Under the pieces are notes generated by a model, which saw nothing but the letters and a program-made list of their open reading frames with translations, was not told the DNA's origin and did not search any database. 64,000 bases of DNA, from positions 61,447-125,446 of the IMG/VR virus record IMGVR_UViG_3300025073_000028; one strand, given 5' to 3'. The position numbers were made by a program, and so were the translations under genes. The number at the start of each line of letters is the position of its first letter. Positions within the stretch are counted from its first letter, which is position 1. Below, in pieces: positions 3,790 to 15,260 of this stretch. This DNA is from a virus.

Positions 3790-4473
3790 ATGAATAACTC
3801 AAAATTAATATTAACTTTAGAAGAAAATTCAAGCGAAGTTAATGCAAAATTTATTTCTGCCTCTAATGAAATTATATATAAAACAATTCCAGATCATTTA
3901 ATTGCTAATTTCTTCGTTGATAAACAAGAAGTTAAATTAGGCCCTTTTCATAGTTTTGGTATTTCTTATTACACCAGAAATCTCAATAAAGAAATTCTTT
4001 TATTTACATACCCAGCAAGTTTATTAACTTATAATTACCATAACAAAAGAACAGGTGCAGCTGTTGAGGCAATTGATAATGTTCCTATCCCTATCACCTT
4101 ATTTGTATTTGTTAAAGCTGGTTCAAGCACATATACTTATTGTATATGTTTAAAACATTATGCCCTGACTCAAAGTACCGAAATCTACCATTGGCCATAT
4201 GGTAATACATATAATGATGGAAAAATTTGCTGGGGATCAACTGAGCATGTTTTAAATGGAATTGAAAGTGCTATCGGAATTATTAATAATTTTCTATCTT
4301 CTACATTTAATGATGATTTATATCAAAAACCAGTGATAGCCGAATACCAAAATTACGGTCAAAAAGAATTAGCTCAAACATTATGTGGAAAAATTTTCCC
4401 AAATAATGCTTTAAATAGCATTGGAAATCTTCGTGTATGGTTGCGTAACAATAACATAGATGGAGTTATCTAA
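3790..4473 (+). CDS. E2-like protein, prokaryotic E2 family D / PRTRC system protein B type
   Basis: The 227-residue protein has the segment HWPYGNTYNDGKICWGS, matching the PRTRC-B/Prok-E2_D pattern in which a cysteine follows an N-x-Y-x-x-G-K core; here it is Cys147. In this family the cysteine is the presumed thioester-forming residue of an E2 (UBC) fold. A GAGGAAAG ribosome binding site precedes the ATG at 3790, and the stop overlaps the JAMM gene. The role inferred from family and context is to accept a ubiquitin-like protein from the E1 encoded at 5504. Confidence 0.7.
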   Translation: MNNSKLILTLEENSSEVNAKFISASNEIIYKTIPDHLIANFFVDKQEVKLGPFHSFGISYYTRNLNKEILLFTYPASLLTYNYHNKRTGAAVEAIDNVPIPITLFVFVKAGSSTYTYCICLKHYALTQSTEIYHWPYGNTYNDGKICWGSTEHVLNGIESAIGIINNFLSSTFNDDLYQKPVIAEYQNYGQKELAQTLCGKIFPNNALNSIGNLRVWLRNNNIDGVI

Positions 4474-5507
4474 TGGATAAGAAATTCTACTTTTTATCTG
4501 ATGAACTACGCGAAAATAATGACAAAGTTAAATCTTTGATTCAGAAAAAAAGAGAAAGTTTAAGTAAGCTTATTTCTCCTGCTACTATTTCCACAAATAA
4601 ATTAGCGGCAAAATATATTCCTAAAGTATTAGGAGGATCAGCTCAAGATTTTATTGCGCTTAAACATCCAGTGGCTTATTCTATACAAGAGAACGGTATT
4701 TATCGCGTTGAATATCAAAAATTTGCTCTCTTTATGAAGAAGGCACATGGGTATGATGAACCGTTACTATATACCGAAAATTCTATTAAAGAGAATGGAT
4801 TTGTTTACCTACTTCCTAAAATTCCAATTGAGTTATTACTTCAAAGTTTTATCTTAGCGACTGACGTATGTGCCATTGCCGAGCAAAATGTAGAAGTTAT
4901 GACACGTATTTTGTGGGATACAGAAGCTAAAAAATATTTCCTTGATATTCCTATTCAAGTAATAAGTGGTGCTGCTATTAAATTCTTTGATTTCGACGAA
5001 GACGATCAGAAGAAAGATAGCAAAATTACATATTTATCACCTATTCATGAGTCTAAAAACTTACAGGTTATGCAAATTCATTCTCATAATTCTATGGGAG
5101 CTTTCCATAGTGAGACAGATGACAAAGATAATGCAGAAACTAGATTTTATGGTGTTATCGGAAACATCTTTACCGATCCTACCTTTACTGGTAGATGGTG
5201 TATGATGGGCAAAGAAGAAGGGAAAATTTCCTTAAAAGACTTATTCGACACCGAACAATTAACACTAAAAGAGATTCTAAAAGAAAATGATTTATCATGT
5301 ATCACATATCCAGAAGATGCATTATCAAGAATAGCAATGGATAAGCCTTATAAAGTGGTTGAAAAGGCCATTATAGAACCCCGAGCAATAGGTCTTCATC
5401 CAACACCAGTCAAAGATTTGACAGATGACGAAGAAGAATATTTTGAACGCTTTTGTCCCGGTGCTAAAAAAACCCGTCGAGATTTCTTTAGGACGACCAA
5501 ACCATGA
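4473..5507 (+). CDS. JAB/JAMM metalloprotease-like protein (PRTRC system A-like)
   Basis: The 344-residue protein carries a textbook JAMM zinc motif H-x-H-x7-S-x2-D: His203, His205, Ser213 and Asp216, in QIHSHNSMGAF. JAB/MPN proteases remove or process ubiquitin-like proteins. The N-terminal 190 residues are not recognised; the C-terminus ends basic. It starts one base before the previous stop is complete and overlaps the E1 gene by four bases, so E2-like, protease and E1 are translationally coupled. Confidence 0.8.
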   Translation: MDKKFYFLSDELRENNDKVKSLIQKKRESLSKLISPATISTNKLAAKYIPKVLGGSAQDFIALKHPVAYSIQENGIYRVEYQKFALFMKKAHGYDEPLLYTENSIKENGFVYLLPKIPIELLLQSFILATDVCAIAEQNVEVMTRILWDTEAKKYFLDIPIQVISGAAIKFFDFDEDDQKKDSKITYLSPIHESKNLQVMQIHSHNSMGAFHSETDDKDNAETRFYGVIGNIFTDPTFTGRWCMMGKEEGKISLKDLFDTEQLTLKEILKENDLSCITYPEDALSRIAMDKPYKVVEKAIIEPRAIGLHPTPVKDLTDDEEEYFERFCPGAKKTRRDFFRTTKP

Positions 5508-6241
5508 AGATAGGACTAATTAACATACCTCAAAACTTCATTGGACATATAGAAATTATTGGAGCAGGAGGTACAGGAAGTTGGCTAATTCCTTGGTTAA
5601 TTAAATTTCTTAAATCTTGCCCAGTTAATATTCATATTATGGACGGAGATGTTGTTAGCGACAAAAATATTCTAAGACAAAACTTCATTGCTTCTGATAT
5701 TGGTAAAAATAAAGCTGAGGTATTAGCAGAAAGATACTCACGCGCTTATGGAGTAACTATCATAGCTAAACCTCAATTCTTAACAAAAGAAACACCAATA
5801 AAGAATGACTATTATGATTGTCTCCCTCTTATAATTTGTTGCTGTGATAATGACGAAGCTCGGCTTTTGTGCGCAAATCGCTATAAGAAAGCCAAATATT
5901 TTTATTTGGATTGCGGCAATGATTTAGATACAGGCCAAGTTATCTTAGGAGGTAACTTAGGGCAAATGGCTGTTACTAATCCAATTAATAACGAAACATA
6001 TAAGCAAAAAGTTATTTTAGATGATGTTGTGAAATTATATCCTGAAATAAATAATGCTAAACCACATGAACGTTCATGTGCAGATGGTCCACCACAAAAT
6101 ATGTTAATTAATCAGATGACGGCTTTACATGCTTTGGCTATATTAAGCGAAATATTTATCACAAAAATGTTAAAAACAACACAAATTACATTTAGTTTAA
6201 GTAGCAATAGTCAATTTACATATTTCACATTAGATACTTAG
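5504..6241 (+). CDS. E1-like ThiF family adenylyltransferase (PRTRC ThiF-like)
   Basis: The 245-residue protein has the nucleotide-binding glycine loop GAGGTGSW at residues 20-27, followed by an acidic MDGD and NILRQNF, then DIGKNKAEV. This is the order typical of ThiF/MoeB/E1 enzymes that adenylate the C-terminal Gly of a ubiquitin-like protein. A later cysteine in ERSCADGP is a candidate for the thiol relay. The gene closes the ubiquitin-like module and its stop codon lies inside a hairpin of the following structured region. Confidence 0.85.
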   Translation: MKIGLINIPQNFIGHIEIIGAGGTGSWLIPWLIKFLKSCPVNIHIMDGDVVSDKNILRQNFIASDIGKNKAEVLAERYSRAYGVTIIAKPQFLTKETPIKNDYYDCLPLIICCCDNDEARLLCANRYKKAKYFYLDCGNDLDTGQVILGGNLGQMAVTNPINNETYKQKVILDDVVKLYPEINNAKPHERSCADGPPQNMLINQMTALHALAILSEIFITKMLKTTQITFSLSSNSQFTYFTLDT

Positions 6242-6530
6242 AAATAAGTATCTTAAATGTATTTCACAAACTAAATTTATTTGAATGGTTACATTCAAAT
6301 AAAGTTAGTTAGAACTGGACTGCAGCTGGACTCGGCCAGTTCTCGATTCAAATAATTTGAATCGAGTGAAATACACCAAGTATCTAGATGAAAATCAAGG
6401 ATAGCTATAAGTAATCTAAGGCGATACTTAATAACCTCTTTGCTATGGGAGAGTCCCTTTATAGGGACCAATTCCAATATTAAAGATTGTTGTTAACTAT
6501 ATCAATTTAGATTACTTATAGTCTTGGTGT
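6232..6530 (+). ncRNA. highly structured non-coding RNA candidate upstream of the reverse transcriptase
   Basis: This stretch has no credible gene but holds many perfect inverted repeats. They are 6232-6240 with 6245-6253 (GAAA loop); 6276-6287 with 6292-6303 (12 bp, GTTA loop); 6311-6318 with 6336-6343; 6342-6352 with 6356-6366 (11 bp, 3-base loop); a closing helix 6258-6267 with 6366-6375; 6373-6380 with 6523-6530; 6405-6418 with 6508-6521 (14 bp); and 6453-6458 with 6463-6468. The last long helices enclose about 90 bases immediately before the RT start, like the a1/a2 helix of retron msr-msd RNA or the RNA of defence RTs. No poly-T terminator follows. Some stems overlap by a few bases and may be alternatives. 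Confidence 0.65.
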
Positions 6531-6559
6531 CTCTTTTCCTAAAAAAAAATGTAATAAAT

Positions 6560-7309
6560 ATGTATACTAGTATAAAACTTAGAAAAGTTAATAATAAATT
6601 TAGAGACATTAATATCCCTGATCCTGAGACAAAAGTGAAATTAAAAAAAATTCATAAAAGAATATATAATTCTATTTCTATAAAAGAAAATATTTTTAGT
6701 TTCAGATCTGTTCTTAATACTATTAATTATCATTTTCCATTTGAATATGATTATTGGATAGAATTAGATATTAAAAAGTTTTTCCCCTCTATTATAAAAG
6801 AAAATTTTGTTAGGCTATATCCGAATTTATTAACAAATGAAGAGCTTGATATATGTTTTTATCAAAACAGCTTACCGCAAGGTAGTCCTGCAAGTCCAAT
6901 TTTAGCCGAATGTTTTATACAATATTTAGAAAGATCATTATACGAAACTCATCAAGATTTTGTATGGTCTCGTTATGTAGACAACATCATTATTTCATGC
7001 CGCAGAGATAACATTCCAAATGTTATTCGTTTATTCAAAAATATCTATTCAATTGGCAATTTAAAATGCCCAGTTAAGTCTATTATTCCTAAAACTGAAA
7101 AATTTGGAGTCTTAGGCATAACAGTTCAAAACAATATCATTTCTTTATCTCGTAGAACTAAAAGAAAATTAAGCCTTAAGCTAGTTAATTCTAATCAAGA
7201 ATCTTATTCCTTAGGCATTCTTAATTATATTCAGCAAATTAATCAAGAAGACCTTGATCATATCCAAAATAATCTTAATAAATTCAGGAGGAATAATGGC
7301 AACCACTGA
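6560..7309 (+). CDS. reverse transcriptase, retron- or defence-RT-like
   Basis: The product is a 249-residue RT with the core motifs in order: ELDIKKFFPS (Asp70), LPQGSPASPIL (105-115), RYVDN (138-142, Asp141-Asn142) and VLGITVQNNIISLSRR near residue 190. The second catalytic Asp of YxDD is replaced by Asn. PQGSPASP and the VLG block resemble retrons and related bacterial RTs more than typical DGR RTs. There is no maturase or endonuclease domain. A TTG start at 6524 is possible, but it lies inside the RNA helix, so the ATG at 6560 is preferred; no clear Shine-Dalgarno is seen. It overlaps the prkA-like gene by 14 bases. Confidence 0.85.
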   Translation: MYTSIKLRKVNNKFRDINIPDPETKVKLKKIHKRIYNSISIKENIFSFRSVLNTINYHFPFEYDYWIELDIKKFFPSIIKENFVRLYPNLLTNEELDICFYQNSLPQGSPASPILAECFIQYLERSLYETHQDFVWSRYVDNIIISCRRDNIPNVIRLFKNIYSIGNLKCPVKSIIPKTEKFGVLGITVQNNIISLSRRTKRKLSLKLVNSNQESYSLGILNYIQQINQEDLDHIQNNLNKFRRNNGNH

Positions 7310-9320
7310 GGTCAAAGAGAATCTTCTTGCTCAATTAATGGCCAAGCACGACAAACTCAAGGTAGAATTACATACTATCTCTTTATCTGAATATATCGAA
7401 TTAGTTAAAAATAAGCCTAGTATTGCAGCTAATGCTGCTGGGCGTGTCTATAATTCGATTCATCGACATGGTATTCGATACGAACTAGATCAATATGCCC
7501 TGGAAAAGGGAAAGAAAATTGAAATTTATGACTTCTTTGAAAAACAATTCTTTGGAATTCAGGATAATATTGGCATGCTAATGCAGTATCTTAAATCTGC
7601 TGCAAATAAAAGTGATGCAAGCCGCCGCCTACTCCTATTCATGGGACCAGTAGGAAGCGGAAAGAGTGATGTTGTTGACAAAATTAAAAGAAATCTAGCT
7701 GAATATAGCAATACTGATGATGGTGCTATTTACCGGATCAAGTATCCATTCACAGACGAAGAAAGTCACAAGTATGGTCTCGTGAAGAACCATTGTCCTA
7801 TCAATGAAGACCCATTACGAGCCTTACCCGATGAACTTAGGGAAGACTTTTTCACAGCAACAGGTATCAAAATCGAAGGCCATTTATGCCCACATTGCGC
7901 AAAGGTTCTAACTAAGTTCTTGAATGATGATATTTCGAAATTCTTATCACAACGATTTTTGATTAGTATTAGTCAGCGTCAAGGTATCGGTAACTTTATG
8001 CCCGGAGATCCTAAGTCTCAAAAAGCTAGTGACCTCAAAGGAACAAAAAATATTAGTACATTGAGCCAACATGGTCTAAGTGATCCGTTTAGTTATGATT
8101 ATTCCGGTGAAATTAATTACGCAAATCGTGGGATCATGGAACTTATGGAAATTTTAAAGATTTCCAAAGATATGCGAATGGATTTACTAAGTTTAACTCA
8201 AGAGAAACAGTTAAAAATTGAAAATCTCCCCATGATCGACGTAGACGAACTCATTATTTCGCATACAAACGAATCGGAATTCCGTAAGTTCATGGAAGAT
8301 CTAACAGAAGAAGCAACACAAGATCGCGTATGGACTATTGGTTGGCCTTATTGTTTAAGCTATAAGGACGAAGAAAAGATTTATCAAAAGATTCTTCGTC
8401 AAAACCAAAATCGCGATAAAATTCATATTGCTCCACATACTTTAGAAGTGGCAGCATTTTACGCAATGCTTACTCGCCTAAAGCCACCAAAAGGATCTGC
8501 TGTTGGACTTAAACAGAAGATCCGTTTCTATGCAGGAGAAGACGTATTCGGCTTAAACAAATCAGATTTGCGCCCTCTACGTCTTGAACATACCAGAGAA
8601 GGATTCGAGGGACTAGGACCCAGAAAGATCGTAGATTGTATTAATCGTGCAATGGCTGATCAAATTAATGACAATACAGAATTCCCATGTATTAACCCAG
8701 TAACTATTCTTGCAAAGATTAAGAAGTATTTACAAGAGAATCCTGAAGTCAAAGAAGAGTCACGTAAAGAATGGCTAGGTCATATTGGAACTGTTCTAGA
8801 AGAATATAACGATATGGCCGAGAAGGCTGTTGCAGGAGCACTACTTGCCGATATCGATAGTCGTGCTCAAGAATTATTCTCTCGTTATATTGATAATATT
8901 AATAATTTCTTATCCGAAGAAAAACCCAGAGATGAGATGGGGAATGAAATCCCATTGGATGATGAATTGATGAATTCAATTGAATCTGCTATTGGTGTAA
9001 ATTCTTCATCTAAACGTGAATTCCGTCATGAAATATTTCGTAAACATTGGGAAGTAACACAAGCAGGAGGGGAATTCAAGTGGAATTCTCATGATCGTTT
9101 ACGTGAAGCAATTGAGAAATATTTATACTCAAAAGCAAAGCAAACGTTACGTATCCCATTCGACAAACACTTAGATAAAGCTAAGCCTGGTAAAGATGGA
9201 GAGAAGGTTTTAAAAGCTATCAGGAAAAGATTGCAAGAACGTGGATATTGTGAATCTTGCGCAGAAGCTTTAATTAAATATGTTAATACTATTTTTGTGA
9301 ACCGCGCCTCTAAAAAATAA
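7296..9320 (+). CDS. prkA: PrkA family serine protein kinase
   Basis: The product is 674 residues, the usual PrkA/YeaG length. The start at 7296 is set by a strong AGGAGG at 7286-7291; the open frame extends further upstream into the RT gene. Recognisable PrkA blocks are FFGIQDNIGMLMQYLKSAA, the Walker A GPVGSGKSD, the PL-LP and GHLCPHC region, PGDPKSQ, ANRGIMELMEILK, TQEKQ, ISHTNESEF and PYCLSYKDEEKIY. PrkA is an AAA-ATPase/kinase-like protein linked to sporulation, stress and nitrogen starvation responses. In bacteria it is co-encoded with YeaH/YhbH and SpoVR, as here. Confidence 0.92.
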   Translation: MATTEVKENLLAQLMAKHDKLKVELHTISLSEYIELVKNKPSIAANAAGRVYNSIHRHGIRYELDQYALEKGKKIEIYDFFEKQFFGIQDNIGMLMQYLKSAANKSDASRRLLLFMGPVGSGKSDVVDKIKRNLAEYSNTDDGAIYRIKYPFTDEESHKYGLVKNHCPINEDPLRALPDELREDFFTATGIKIEGHLCPHCAKVLTKFLNDDISKFLSQRFLISISQRQGIGNFMPGDPKSQKASDLKGTKNISTLSQHGLSDPFSYDYSGEINYANRGIMELMEILKISKDMRMDLLSLTQEKQLKIENLPMIDVDELIISHTNESEFRKFMEDLTEEATQDRVWTIGWPYCLSYKDEEKIYQKILRQNQNRDKIHIAPHTLEVAAFYAMLTRLKPPKGSAVGLKQKIRFYAGEDVFGLNKSDLRPLRLEHTREGFEGLGPRKIVDCINRAMADQINDNTEFPCINPVTILAKIKKYLQENPEVKEESRKEWLGHIGTVLEEYNDMAEKAVAGALLADIDSRAQELFSRYIDNINNFLSEEKPRDEMGNEIPLDDELMNSIESAIGVNSSSKREFRHEIFRKHWEVTQAGGEFKWNSHDRLREAIEKYLYSKAKQTLRIPFDKHLDKAKPGKDGEKVLKAIRKRLQERGYCESCAEALIKYVNTIFVNRASKK

Positions 9321-9324
9321 CTTT

Positions 9325-9680
9325 ATGTTTAAAGTAATCAATGGCCTTACAATTGACTTCCAAAGAAGATTAATTTGGGGACCAACCCAAAAACCAATGA
9401 CTTGGTTTCAAGCCATGAACTTAGAAAAAGACGGTTGGAGATTGCCGACAAAAGATGAGTTAAGACAAGCATTTATAGATAAAGTTCCTGGATTTAAAAG
9501 TGCTCGCTTCTGGTCTTCATCTCTCTACACCTACTACCTTCAAAGCTATGTGTGGAGCGTGTCCCTCTTCTATGGCGATGCCTATTATGATATAGGTCCT
9601 CCATCTTCTACGTGCGGCGTGTGAGACCACTTGACTCTTTGATTTTAAAAGAATTTGGAATTATAATGGAAAAGTTATGA
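9325..9680 (+). pseudogene. Lcl/DUF1566-type variable protein, frameshifted copy
   Basis: Translation from the ATG at 9325 gives the family N-terminus (MFKVINGLTIDF, WGP, WRLPTKDEL) and FWSSS, then a variable segment (about 9520-9608). It stops at 9624 in a frame different from its paralogues. In the -1 frame the expected conserved ending YVRRVRPLDSLILKEF continues to a TGA at 9678-9680, which overlaps the next start (ATGA). A one-base deletion or two-base insertion in the variable segment therefore broke the frame. About half of the variable codons end in C, unlike the surrounding AT-rich sequence. The shortened protein ends at residue 99. Confidence 0.75.
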
Positions 9681-10045
9681 GTATATTCCAACAAATTGAA
9701 AATTTCGTAATCGACACCGAAAGAAAACAAATTTGGAAATTAGAGTCTATTAAAATGAGTTGGTGGACAGCCTTAAGACAAGAACAATATGAATGGACAT
9801 TACCAACAGCTAAACAACTAAAACGAATATGGGAACTTGAAGCTCCAGGATTTATCAAAGATTATTACTGGACAAATTCAGCTTACAGCATAGGTAATCA
9901 ATTTGGTGACTATGCTTGGTGTATAAGATTAACTGACGGTAATATTTATAACGAAGAAAAAGAGAGACCTCTTTTTGTATGTTATATACGACCATTCGAT
10001 TCTTACACACTGTTAGAACTTGGGTTTAATCGTGAGGAACTATGA
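9677..10045 (+). CDS. divergent Lcl/DUF1566-like protein
   Basis: The 122-residue protein has the same plan as its neighbour but is diverged: WTLPTAKQL, an aromatic YYWTNSAYS in place of FWSSS, YAWCIRL, and a closing YIRPFDSYTLLELGF. The fold is expected to be the C-type-lectin-like Lcl domain used for ligand binding. It sits between the prkA-like and yeaH-like genes, and the start couples to the frame of the disrupted copy before it. Confidence 0.65.
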   Translation: MSIFQQIENFVIDTERKQIWKLESIKMSWWTALRQEQYEWTLPTAKQLKRIWELEAPGFIKDYYWTNSAYSIGNQFGDYAWCIRLTDGNIYNEEKERPLFVCYIRPFDSYTLLELGFNREEL

Positions 10046-11244
10046 GCGATAGCATCTATGACATCTGGGATTTAAATAACCAGACTGATATGGAAGAGCG
10101 AAAACATACCGAACGTGTAAAAGAAGCGATTAAATCCGGCGCGAAAGATATTATTAACTCTGAAGATATTATTACATCTGATAGTGCTGGCAAAAAAGTT
10201 AAAGTACGTATCCCGACTATTAAACAAAGGCGTTTTATTTGGGGTACCAACAAAGATACACCACAACCAGATTATTCTGATACGAGTGGAGAAGCTTTAG
10301 GAGAAGAAGGAGATGTCCTTAAACCTGGAGACCCCTTTAGTCAAGGACAAGGTCCACAAGCAGGCAATGAACATGGAGATCCAACTTATACTGTAGAGAT
10401 TGACTTACAAGACATTATCGAAGAAATGATTCGACAGTTAGGGCTTCCTAATTTACGAGAAAAAGAGCAAAGGACAGTAGAGTCTATTGAAACAAAGTAC
10501 AACACCTATAGGCCAACTGATACAATATCAAACGCTGATATTGAAGAAACTATTTTAAGAAATATCATTCGTAATGCAGCAGAGACAGGAAAGGCATATG
10601 TAGGAGATTTTAAACAAGAAGATTTAGTAAAAATTTCTTATGAAGAAATTCCTCAATATACTACTCATGCAGCTGTCTATTTATTAATGGATGTCAGTGG
10701 TTCTATGACTGAAGAAATTCGTGTCGTTGCAAAAATGATCTTTTTCTGGATAGTCCAATTCCTCAAATATAATTATAAAAAAGTAGATATATATTTTATT
10801 GCGCACGATACTCAAGCTTGGTTTGAGGAAGAAAAGAAATTCTTTGAAGTATCTTGGGGAGGAGGAACTATTTGTTCTAGTGCTTTGAAATTAGCCGACG
10901 AACATATAGACAAACATCACCCTCCTTCAAAATGTAATAATTATATAGTACATTTAACTGACGGTGGAAATTGGGGAGACGATGATAACCGCTTATACGT
11001 TAAACTTGTGGATAAGTTATTAACTAAATGTTCTATGATTGGTTATGGAGAGATAAACCCACATCTAGGATGGGGAAATTATGGACTTCAATGGGAAGTA
11101 AGCTCAAATTCAGGGTCTGAATTATATTCCTTACTTAGAAACAAAATTACTGATGAAAAATTCCAGGCTATTTTAATTAATGGCAAGGAAGATGTAGATA
11201 AAACCTTACAGTTCTTCTTTGGGACAACGAAAAAGGAGAAATAA
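10042..11244 (+). CDS. YeaH/YhbH family protein (DUF444, VWA fold)
   Basis: The 400-residue protein has the family N-terminus with a basic stretch, a Gly/Pro-rich linker around residues 80-110, and a VWA-like domain with the metal-binding MDVSGSM (about residue 215), WGGGT, and LTDGGNWGDDDN. These are the hallmarks of YeaH/YhbH proteins, partners of PrkA. The start overlaps the upstream Lcl-like gene (ATGA), and the SpoVR gene follows with one base between them. Its role with PrkA is inferred from conserved bacterial synteny. Confidence 0.92.
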   Translation: MSDSIYDIWDLNNQTDMEERKHTERVKEAIKSGAKDIINSEDIITSDSAGKKVKVRIPTIKQRRFIWGTNKDTPQPDYSDTSGEALGEEGDVLKPGDPFSQGQGPQAGNEHGDPTYTVEIDLQDIIEEMIRQLGLPNLREKEQRTVESIETKYNTYRPTDTISNADIEETILRNIIRNAAETGKAYVGDFKQEDLVKISYEEIPQYTTHAAVYLLMDVSGSMTEEIRVVAKMIFFWIVQFLKYNYKKVDIYFIAHDTQAWFEEEKKFFEVSWGGGTICSSALKLADEHIDKHHPPSKCNNYIVHLTDGGNWGDDDNRLYVKLVDKLLTKCSMIGYGEINPHLGWGNYGLQWEVSSNSGSELYSLLRNKITDEKFQAILINGKEDVDKTLQFFFGTTKKEK

Positions 11245-11245
11245 G

Positions 11246-12742
11246 ATGCTCGTTGAAGGACACATCGACGAAGAAGTAAAAGCCATTAGTGAAATAGCAC
11301 ACGAAATGGGATTGTCTTGGGATCCTATTATTTGGGAAACAGTTCCTCCAAAATTAATGGCGATTATCGCAACCTATGGGCTACCCCTACGTATGCGTCA
11401 TTTCTCCTATGCTCCTACATGGACACAACAAAAAGCCGCTAGCGAATATGGTATGGTAGCGTTAGAAACCATTATTAATAATAACCCCACTTATGCCTTT
11501 ATGCATGCGAGTAACAATTTAGTTACTAATAAGTTAATTATTGCCCATTGCATGGGTCATGCACATGTTTTTAAAAACAATATTCAATTATCTAAAGTAC
11601 CTAAAGATATGGTACAAAGAGCTGCTGATTCTTGTTTGCGCGTAGAGCGTTATAAAGAAATGTATGGAGAGAAAGAAGTAGAAGACTTTATCACTATGGC
11701 ATTTGCTCTTGAGCGTCATTTGGATTGGTTTACATATACCCAAAAAGGCGAGAATAGACCACTATATCCCAAGAAGGAAAGGACAATTAGTTATACGGAA
11801 CCCGATATCATTGACTTATTAACACAAGAAAGCCCTCAAGTAACAAGTAAAGTCTCTTGGAATTACGAAACATTTCCTCCAAGAAAAGAACCTGATTTAT
11901 TATGGTTTCTTGCGCATTACGCACCTGATCTAGAAGAATGGCAAAAAGATGTACTCTTAACAGTGAGAGCAGAAAGTTATTATTTCTATCCTCAATTCTT
12001 AACTAAAACTATTAATGAAGGATTTGCAAGTCTTGTTCATATCGTAATTATGGAAAAGTACTTAAACGATATGGATATGGTTGATTTTGCCGCATTAAAT
12101 TCTGCTGTCATCAATCCGGGATGGGATGAAGAACACATGATTGGACGTATGGGGCATAACCCATATTATATAGGATATAAAATTCTTAGAGACATCTGGG
12201 AAAGATGGGACGACTATTATACCAATGGCCTTCCTAAAGATATGAAATTATATCCTTATCCACAAGATGACAACCAAAGGTTTCGAGACGAAGATGGAAA
12301 CATTGTTAAAGCAACTATTAAAGGATGGGATAAAGTTCTAGAAGTAGTTAAATTCGAAGACGATCCATCTTTTTATAGAACTTACTTAACTGACAAACTT
12401 ATGTACAAGTTACATTTATGTACAATGCAAAGAGATAACGAAACAGGGGAAGTTATTCTCAAGAATAGGAGTATTGAAGATTTCTGCTTTGAACAATCTG
12501 CTATGTCCTACGATTATGGTGTTCCCAGAATCACAATACAAGGAGTTGCAGATTCTGGAGCTTTAATTTTAGCTCATGAAAACCATCAAGATTTTCAAGA
12601 ATTTGGACTTGAATTAAAACTTGATGAATGTGAAGTAGTCATGAGATATATGGAAAAAATCTGGAAAAGATCAGTTATACTAGGTTCTACCATCAATGGT
12701 GAGAAAAAAGTATTAGTATGTAAAGATGGTAAAATTATTTAG
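11246..12742 (+). CDS. spoVR: SpoVR family protein
   Basis: The 498-residue product is close to the usual length. The start at 11246 follows AAGGAGA; the frame is open upstream but overlaps the yeaH-like gene. SpoVR/YcgB features are WDPIIWETV, YGLPLRMRHFSYA, PTYAFMHASNN, NKLIIAHCMGHAHVFKNN, FINEGFAS-like, and NPYYIGYKILRDIWERW. SpoVR is required for cortex formation in Bacillus and has a stress-related homologue YcgB in Enterobacteria. It completes the PrkA-YeaH-SpoVR triad. Confidence 0.92.
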   Translation: MLVEGHIDEEVKAISEIAHEMGLSWDPIIWETVPPKLMAIIATYGLPLRMRHFSYAPTWTQQKAASEYGMVALETIINNNPTYAFMHASNNLVTNKLIIAHCMGHAHVFKNNIQLSKVPKDMVQRAADSCLRVERYKEMYGEKEVEDFITMAFALERHLDWFTYTQKGENRPLYPKKERTISYTEPDIIDLLTQESPQVTSKVSWNYETFPPRKEPDLLWFLAHYAPDLEEWQKDVLLTVRAESYYFYPQFLTKTINEGFASLVHIVIMEKYLNDMDMVDFAALNSAVINPGWDEEHMIGRMGHNPYYIGYKILRDIWERWDDYYTNGLPKDMKLYPYPQDDNQRFRDEDGNIVKATIKGWDKVLEVVKFEDDPSFYRTYLTDKLMYKLHLCTMQRDNETGEVILKNRSIEDFCFEQSAMSYDYGVPRITIQGVADSGALILAHENHQDFQEFGLELKLDECEVVMRYMEKIWKRSVILGSTINGEKKVLVCKDGKII

Positions 12743-13713: not shown

Positions 13714-14067
13714 ATGTTCAAAGAAATCAATGGCTTTACAATTGACTTCAAGAATAAATTAGTTTGGGGATTAACCCAAGAACCAAGAAGCTGGAGTAGA
13801 GCCATGAACTTAGAAAAAGACGGTTGGAGACTTCCAACAAGAGATGAATTAAAACAAGCATTTATAGATAAAGTTCCTGGATTTGCAAAAGATAGGTTCT
13901 GGTCATCGTTGTCTCTCATTAAGTATACCAACTACGCATGGTACGTGCATCTCGGCTACGGCTTCGCCGACTATGATAATAAAGCTCTCGACTATTATGT
14001 AAGATGTGTGCGGCCGCTTGACTCTTTGATTTTAAAAGAATTAAATTTTACAATGGAAATTTTATAA
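13714..14067 (+). CDS. Lcl/DUF1566-type variable protein
   Basis: The 117-residue protein has constant parts MFKEINGFTIDF, LVWGLTQEPRSW, WRLPTRDELKQAF, DKVPGF and RFWSS, then a variable segment (about 13912-13993), then YVRCVRPLDSLILKELNFTMEIL. This is the YVR-VRP ending typical of DUF1566/Lcl domains that serve as DGR targets. The 3-prime 50 bases are almost identical to the copies ending at 15260 and 24204. It is probably a ligand-binding C-type-lectin fold protein with no signal peptide; the location on the virion is unknown. Confidence 0.8.
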   Translation: MFKEINGFTIDFKNKLVWGLTQEPRSWSRAMNLEKDGWRLPTRDELKQAFIDKVPGFAKDRFWSSLSLIKYTNYAWYVHLGYGFADYDNKALDYYVRCVRPLDSLILKELNFTMEIL

Positions 14068-14906: not shown

Positions 14907-15260
14907 ATGTTTAAAGAAATCAATGGCCTTACAATCGACTTTAAAAATAAATTAATTTGGGGACCAGTCCAAGGACTAATGACTTGGAATCAAGCCAAAG
15001 ACTTAGAAAAAGACAGTTGGAGACTTCCGGTAAAAGATGAGTTAAAACAAGCGTTTTTTGATAAAGTGCCTGGATTTACAGAGGATAGGTTTTGGTCGTC
15101 ATCGTCCTTTATCGACAACGCCGACCACGCATGGTACGTGGATTTCGACAACGGTTACGTTGTCGAAGGTCTTAAAACTTACAGGCTTGCAGCACGGTAT
15201 ATACGACCATTTGATTCTTTGATTTTAAAAGAATTAAATTTTACAATGGAAATTTTATGA
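14907..15260 (+). CDS. Lcl/DUF1566-type variable protein
   Basis: The 117-residue protein is a close copy of the gene at 13714 with constant N-terminus, WRLPVKDELKQAF, RFWSSSSF, a variable segment (about 15103-15190), then ARYIRPFDSLILKELNFTMEIL. In the variable segment about 13 of 21 codons end in C (for example GAC, AAC, GCC, GAC, CAC in succession), strikingly unlike the host gene's A/T-rich wobble bases. The stop overlaps the next start (ATGA). Confidence 0.8.
   Translation: MFKEINGLTIDFKNKLIWGPVQGLMTWNQAKDLEKDSWRLPVKDELKQAFFDKVPGFTEDRFWSSSSFIDNADHAWYVDFDNGYVVEGLKTYRLAARYIRPFDSLILKELNFTMEIL

Follow-up and report, generated by a model that had tools for sequence, protein, structure and literature searches.

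A small retron-type reverse transcriptase and a two-module structured RNA as a candidate effector-less unit of a large phage

Analysis of a 64,000-nucleotide stretch of viral DNA (the window; bases 61447-125446 of the 125,446-base record IMGVR_UViG_3300025073_000028) revealed a compact reverse transcriptase (RT) gene directly preceded by an intricately folded RNA (Table 1). We give about an even chance to the interpretation of this locus as a minimal retron-like RT-RNA unit that a large phage carries without an effector, in which the RT would copy a 117-nt hairpin of the RNA. The combination of a retron-superfamily RT, an exceptional RNA fold, their adjacency and the lack of an adjoining effector supports this interpretation, and adjacency together with layout suggests that RNA and RT work together. 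A longer record, IMGVR_UViG_3300025117_000028 (190,284 bases), represents the same virus, with complete identity over the compared 10.7 kb.

Table 1. Positions of the RT, the predicted RNA elements and the surrounding genes in the window
Feature	Position	Strand	Remarks
E2-like PRTRC-type gene	3790-4473		upstream of RNA and RT
JAB, PRTRC-type gene	4473-5507		upstream of RNA and RT
PRTRC-type ThiF (E1-like)	5504-6241	+	flanking gene, outside the RT-RNA unit
Hairpin H0	6232-6253	+	9 bp, 4-nt loop
Inverted repeat, 9 bp	6232-6240/6245-6253
Module A, four-way junction	6258-6375	+	10-bp closing helix 6258-6267/6366-6375
Inverted repeat, 10 bp	6258-6267/6366-6375
Inverted repeat, 12 bp	6276-6287/6292-6303
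Inverted repeat, 8 bp	6311-6318/6336-6343
Inverted repeat, 12 bp	6342-6353/6355-6366		10-11 bp in effect, as the full repeat leaves a 1-nt loop
Inverted repeat, 8 bp	6373-6380/6523-6530
a1-like 5' arm of 8-bp long-range helix (ACACCAAG)	6373-6380	+
Small msr-like hairpin	6381-6403	+	5 + 3 bp
msd-like 117-nt hairpin	6405-6521	+	perfect 15-bp base, then imperfect with G-U pairs
Inverted repeat, 15 bp	6405-6419/6507-6521
a2-like 3' arm of 8-bp long-range helix (CTTGGTGT)	6523-6530	+	RT start lies 29 nt downstream
Retron-superfamily RT, 249 aa	6560-7309	+	ATG at 6560; motifs QGSPASP and YVDN
PrkA-family kinase	7296-9320	+	flanking gene, outside the RT-RNA unit
Lcl_C (DUF1566) copies	9325-9624, 9677-10045, 13714-14067, 14907-15260		others to about 28290
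DUF444 gene	10042-11244		downstream of RT
SpoVR gene	11219-12742		downstream of RT

Judging by profile, sequence and predicted structure, the RT is a genuine member of the retron superfamily. The best family model in the profile search was the PADLOC II-A retron RT (1.9e-27), the PDB sequence match was Ec86, and the top 13 structural matches of the AF2 model (pLDDT 93.8) were all retron RT chains (Ec86 7v9x, TM 0.71). Another of the best family hits was the NCBIfam model retron_St85, at 96 bits under its cut-off of 235 bits. DRT structures and models scored clearly lower than retron ones, which argues against a DRT-like unit whose RNA would template repeated or de novo cDNA instead of retron msDNA; we consider such a unit improbable, even though the locus resembles RNA-templated defence RTs in joining an RT to a probable cis-encoded RNA and in lacking an effector.

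Several signature residues of the enzyme are replaced: YVDN stands for YxDD, VLG for VTG and TINYH for NAxxH. VTG and NAxxH are each present in 14 of 16 validated retron RTs (PMC6868368); among 195 related RTs, NA opens the NAxxH motif in 144, and VTG or ITG is found in 147. YVDN occurs in this RT only (1/195) and xDN in three, including two retron-type RTs of viral contigs (L032 and L070). Both this rarity and the very long branch of the RT would suit a protein whose catalysis was lost or altered (the second Asp of YxDD being Asn) and whose present role would be RNA binding or regulation on this RNA. We find this quite unlikely, as D70 and D141 (the other catalytic Asp positions) are retained along with the remaining core motifs, and structure prediction gives an intact fold. 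Moreover, non-segmented negative-strand RNA virus polymerases use GDN as their catalytic motif, and thus Asn at the second-Asp position can be compatible with activity. No Shine-Dalgarno sequence was found before the RT start (the PrkA start has one); an ATG-TAA start-stop at 6549-6554, within an A-rich stretch, lies just upstream of the RT start codon and could tune RT translation.

The RNA stands out by the density of its helices. A previous sequence-only reading had counted at least eight perfect inverted repeats in about 300 bases, and the 299 bases at 6232-6530 indeed contain 11 that are 8 bp or longer, whereas 200 dinucleotide shuffles gave 1.2 on average and 5 at most; three repeats reach at least 12 bp, against an average of 0.005 in the same shuffles. 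The best stem is 15 bp long rather than the 14 bp given before, and the 12-bp stem at 6342-6366 would leave a 1-nt loop, so that fewer than 12 pairs form. Four of the 11 repeats are alternative pairings; the others are listed in Table 1. The fold predicted for 6232-6559 (-116.1 kcal/mol, z -11.8, equalled by none of 100 shuffles) agrees with the structured RNA noticed earlier, and its helix pair probabilities, calculated from one sequence, are mostly high. The tile at 6301, though off register, has the lowest z among 213 tiles of the window (-5.3; next -4.5). Folding energy favours the strand encoding the RT over the opposite strand (-116 vs. -104 kcal/mol; 7 G-U pairs), which fits the expectation for an RNA made together with the RT.

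Such a structure might also belong to the operon, as a leader, processing or attenuation element separating thiF from the downstream genes, and the RT might be its neighbour by chance. Consistent with that, the thiF stop codon (6239-6241) lies within H0, the overlapping RT and PrkA genes are apparently co-transcribed, no RNA relative was found to give covariation, and upstream RNA is absent in two of the four nearest RTs. We nevertheless rate this explanation as unlikely: the structure exceeds every other tile in the window, no terminator-like site was found, and retron RNAs match it in position and layout.

The RNA is predicted to consist of two modules. Module A, which corresponds to the extra 5' domain noticed previously and precedes module B, has hairpins at 6269-6310, 6311-6343 and 6342-6366, with pair probabilities mostly above 0.9. 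The long-range helix described as closing just before the RT was likewise recovered, as the closing helix of module B; the two closing helices share three bases and hence would compete there. Each arm of H0 might alternatively pair within module B (6378-6385 and 6423-6430), and a swap of arms between them may perhaps act as a switch.

Module B, with its 8-bp terminal complementarity (the minimum retron length), a single small hairpin and an imperfect 117-nt hairpin, the putative template of reverse transcription, is predicted to match the gross msr-msd layout of retrons, whose published RNAs have ends that are complementary over about 8-30 bases, together with 1-3 msr hairpins and one long imperfect msd hairpin (PMC6868368). 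At its inner end, the first arm of a retron RNA carries the priming G, mostly as part of TAGC (PMC6868368); TAGC is absent from the inner end of the a1-like arm, where CCAAG and then TATC are found, and occurs at 6402-6405. An AGU-triloop msr hairpin, a pattern seen in some related retrons of this study and not a published criterion, is also missing from the window; this is a weak test, such a hairpin being found in 12 of 187 related loci and 1 of 194 background stretches, so that most loci lack it. Regions upstream of related retron-type RTs reach z values down to -12 (median -2.6), and the fold z of -11.8 equals that of the strongest canonical retron RNAs among them. In the clear retrons of this set, several hairpins are closed by one long helix, a plan that modules A and B each resemble on a smaller scale. 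Thus, of the retron or defence-RT arrangement that had been proposed, the RT superfamily and the position of the RNA are upheld, whereas the priming context, the AGU-loop hairpin and the RT signatures do not conform. A search with RNA models, suggested at that stage, gave no Rfam match at the gathering score, and the sub-threshold matches look like chance. A group II intron, which would put intron RNA around the RT gene with domains V/VI behind it, was rejected, with no Rfam match and an RT that overlaps PrkA directly.

The unit lies between a PRTRC ubiquitin-like operon (E2, JAB, E1; 3790-6241) and a PrkA/DUF444/SpoVR module (7296-12742), both borne by the phage. The end of the RT gene overlaps the PrkA start by 14 nt, by which the two look co-transcribed. 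No known effector adjoins the RT, in agreement with the initial reading, the flanks being PRTRC ThiF and PrkA (a distant effector is possible). PrkA occurs without an adjacent annotated RT in the Thermus phages phiYS40, phiLo and Lalka8, its neighbour being SpoVR in phiYS40 and phiLo and a vWA gene in Lalka8, and no RT lies in the fetched flanks of another 79 IMG/VR loci that have a relative of PrkA (0/79); among the fetched PrkA loci, an RT or this ThiF adjoins PrkA in this virus only. The RT-RNA unit thus sits between two modules, and at least the downstream one also occurs in its absence.

By phylogeny the RT is an orphan, on a branch of about 2.8 changes per site. Its nearest RTs (26-29% identity) belong to four IMG/VR phage loci, L016-L019. 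The placement is unstable (near L016 in one tree, unplaced in the other); a possible clade of the RT with L016-L019 is not rejected (p-AU 0.57). A genome search gave no close relatives and only distant retron-type RTs, and exact-peptide patterns of the RT, PrkA and ThiF, which like degenerate motifs can miss relatives, matched the same virus only. No relative of the structured RNA was found, the sole other copy being that of the same virus, and no convincing RNA similarity to the related phages was seen. Structured RNA precedes the RT in L017 and L019, which have a hairpin in common (ACTCTGACTT..AAGTTCAG), and not in L016 or L018; a scan of all viral contigs for this hairpin revealed no additional RT locus with a match. 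The RTs of L018 and L019 are each 46% identical to that of L017, and in all three loci a conserved nucleotidyltransferase-like gene follows the RT; upstream of the RT are a polynucleotide-kinase-like gene in L017 and an RNA ligase and an apparent Thg1 gene in L019. Another orphan retron-type RT (278 aa in L008) lies behind a small ORF on small E. coli/Klebsiella plasmids of 4.2-4.8 kb.

The 190-kb phage, in which a single RT was detected, also carries 18-19 Lcl_C (DUF1566) paralogues. Their DNA shows about 180 conserved bases and then a hypervariable stretch after FWSS, with conservation resuming in several copies; these stretches resemble variable regions of diversity-generating retroelements (DGRs). 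The numerous hypervariable tails in a phage without a second detected RT would invite the idea that this RT diversifies the Lcl_C genes in the DGR manner. However, QGSPASP differs from the DGR form of RT motif 4, the structured RNA is dissimilar to the Lcl_C genes, and neither a DGR RT nor an adenine-tolerant template repeat was found in the 190 kb (as the free base, A did not outperform T), which makes such a role unlikely. The idea is largely refuted, and we regard it as extremely improbable.

Overall, returning to the retron-like unit, we infer an active RT, a priming site and a biological role along the following lines. The operon would also yield the RNA (about 6258-6530), to which the RT encoded immediately downstream would bind, module A possibly serving as an additional RT-binding or regulatory domain. 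Through the short closing helix of module B, a guanosine near 6380 would come to lie beside the 3' end of the template; starting at this helix, the RT would copy the 6405-6521 hairpin into single-stranded DNA that would remain with the RNA and the RT. Against the retron reading stand the misplaced TAGC, the lack of the AGU-loop hairpin, the replaced signature residues, the retron_St85 score, the lack of RNA relatives, and the absence of structured upstream RNA from L016 and L018.

Known defence retrons comprise an RT, an RNA and an effector. Without an effector, suicide defence is unlikely, leaving decoy, rival exclusion or regulation; the most likely use for the phage would be interference with rival phages or with nucleic-acid-sensing host defence (e.g., as a decoy). 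A more specific proposal, which we advance tentatively and consider somewhat doubtful, is a phage-specific effector-free unit that combines a YxDN active site with a two-module RNA, serving the phage's own decoy, counter-defence or cDNA regulation and not acting as a toxic-effector retron. That it represents a new type of phage-borne RT-RNA unit, as first suggested, is plausible but unproven. If true, an effector-less RT with an elaborate RNA in a large phage would suggest that phages use reverse-transcribed DNA for themselves, and the very small retron-type RT offers a test object, including for reverse transcription by YxDN.

Among known systems, the defence-associated RTs DRT2 and DRT9 likewise have a structured RNA adjoining the RT and no separate effector, but show lower structural and profile similarity to the phage RT. 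The L016-L019 loci share compact RTs, VLG or ILG instead of VTG and no recognised retron effector adjoining, and differ in YADD or YVDD, gene neighbourhood and a dissimilar RNA. Retrons Eco1/Ec86 and St85 (PADLOC RT_II-A) have larger RTs (about 320 aa vs. 249 aa here); VLG, TINYH and YVDN, the absence of an adjoining effector, the extra four-way junction and an RNA that lacks both an AGU-loop hairpin and a TAGC where the closing helix ends set the phage locus apart from them. Nevertheless, they have in common with it the RT superfamily and fold and a structured RNA just ahead of the RT, in the phage a predicted one, with complementary ends and a long imperfect hairpin.
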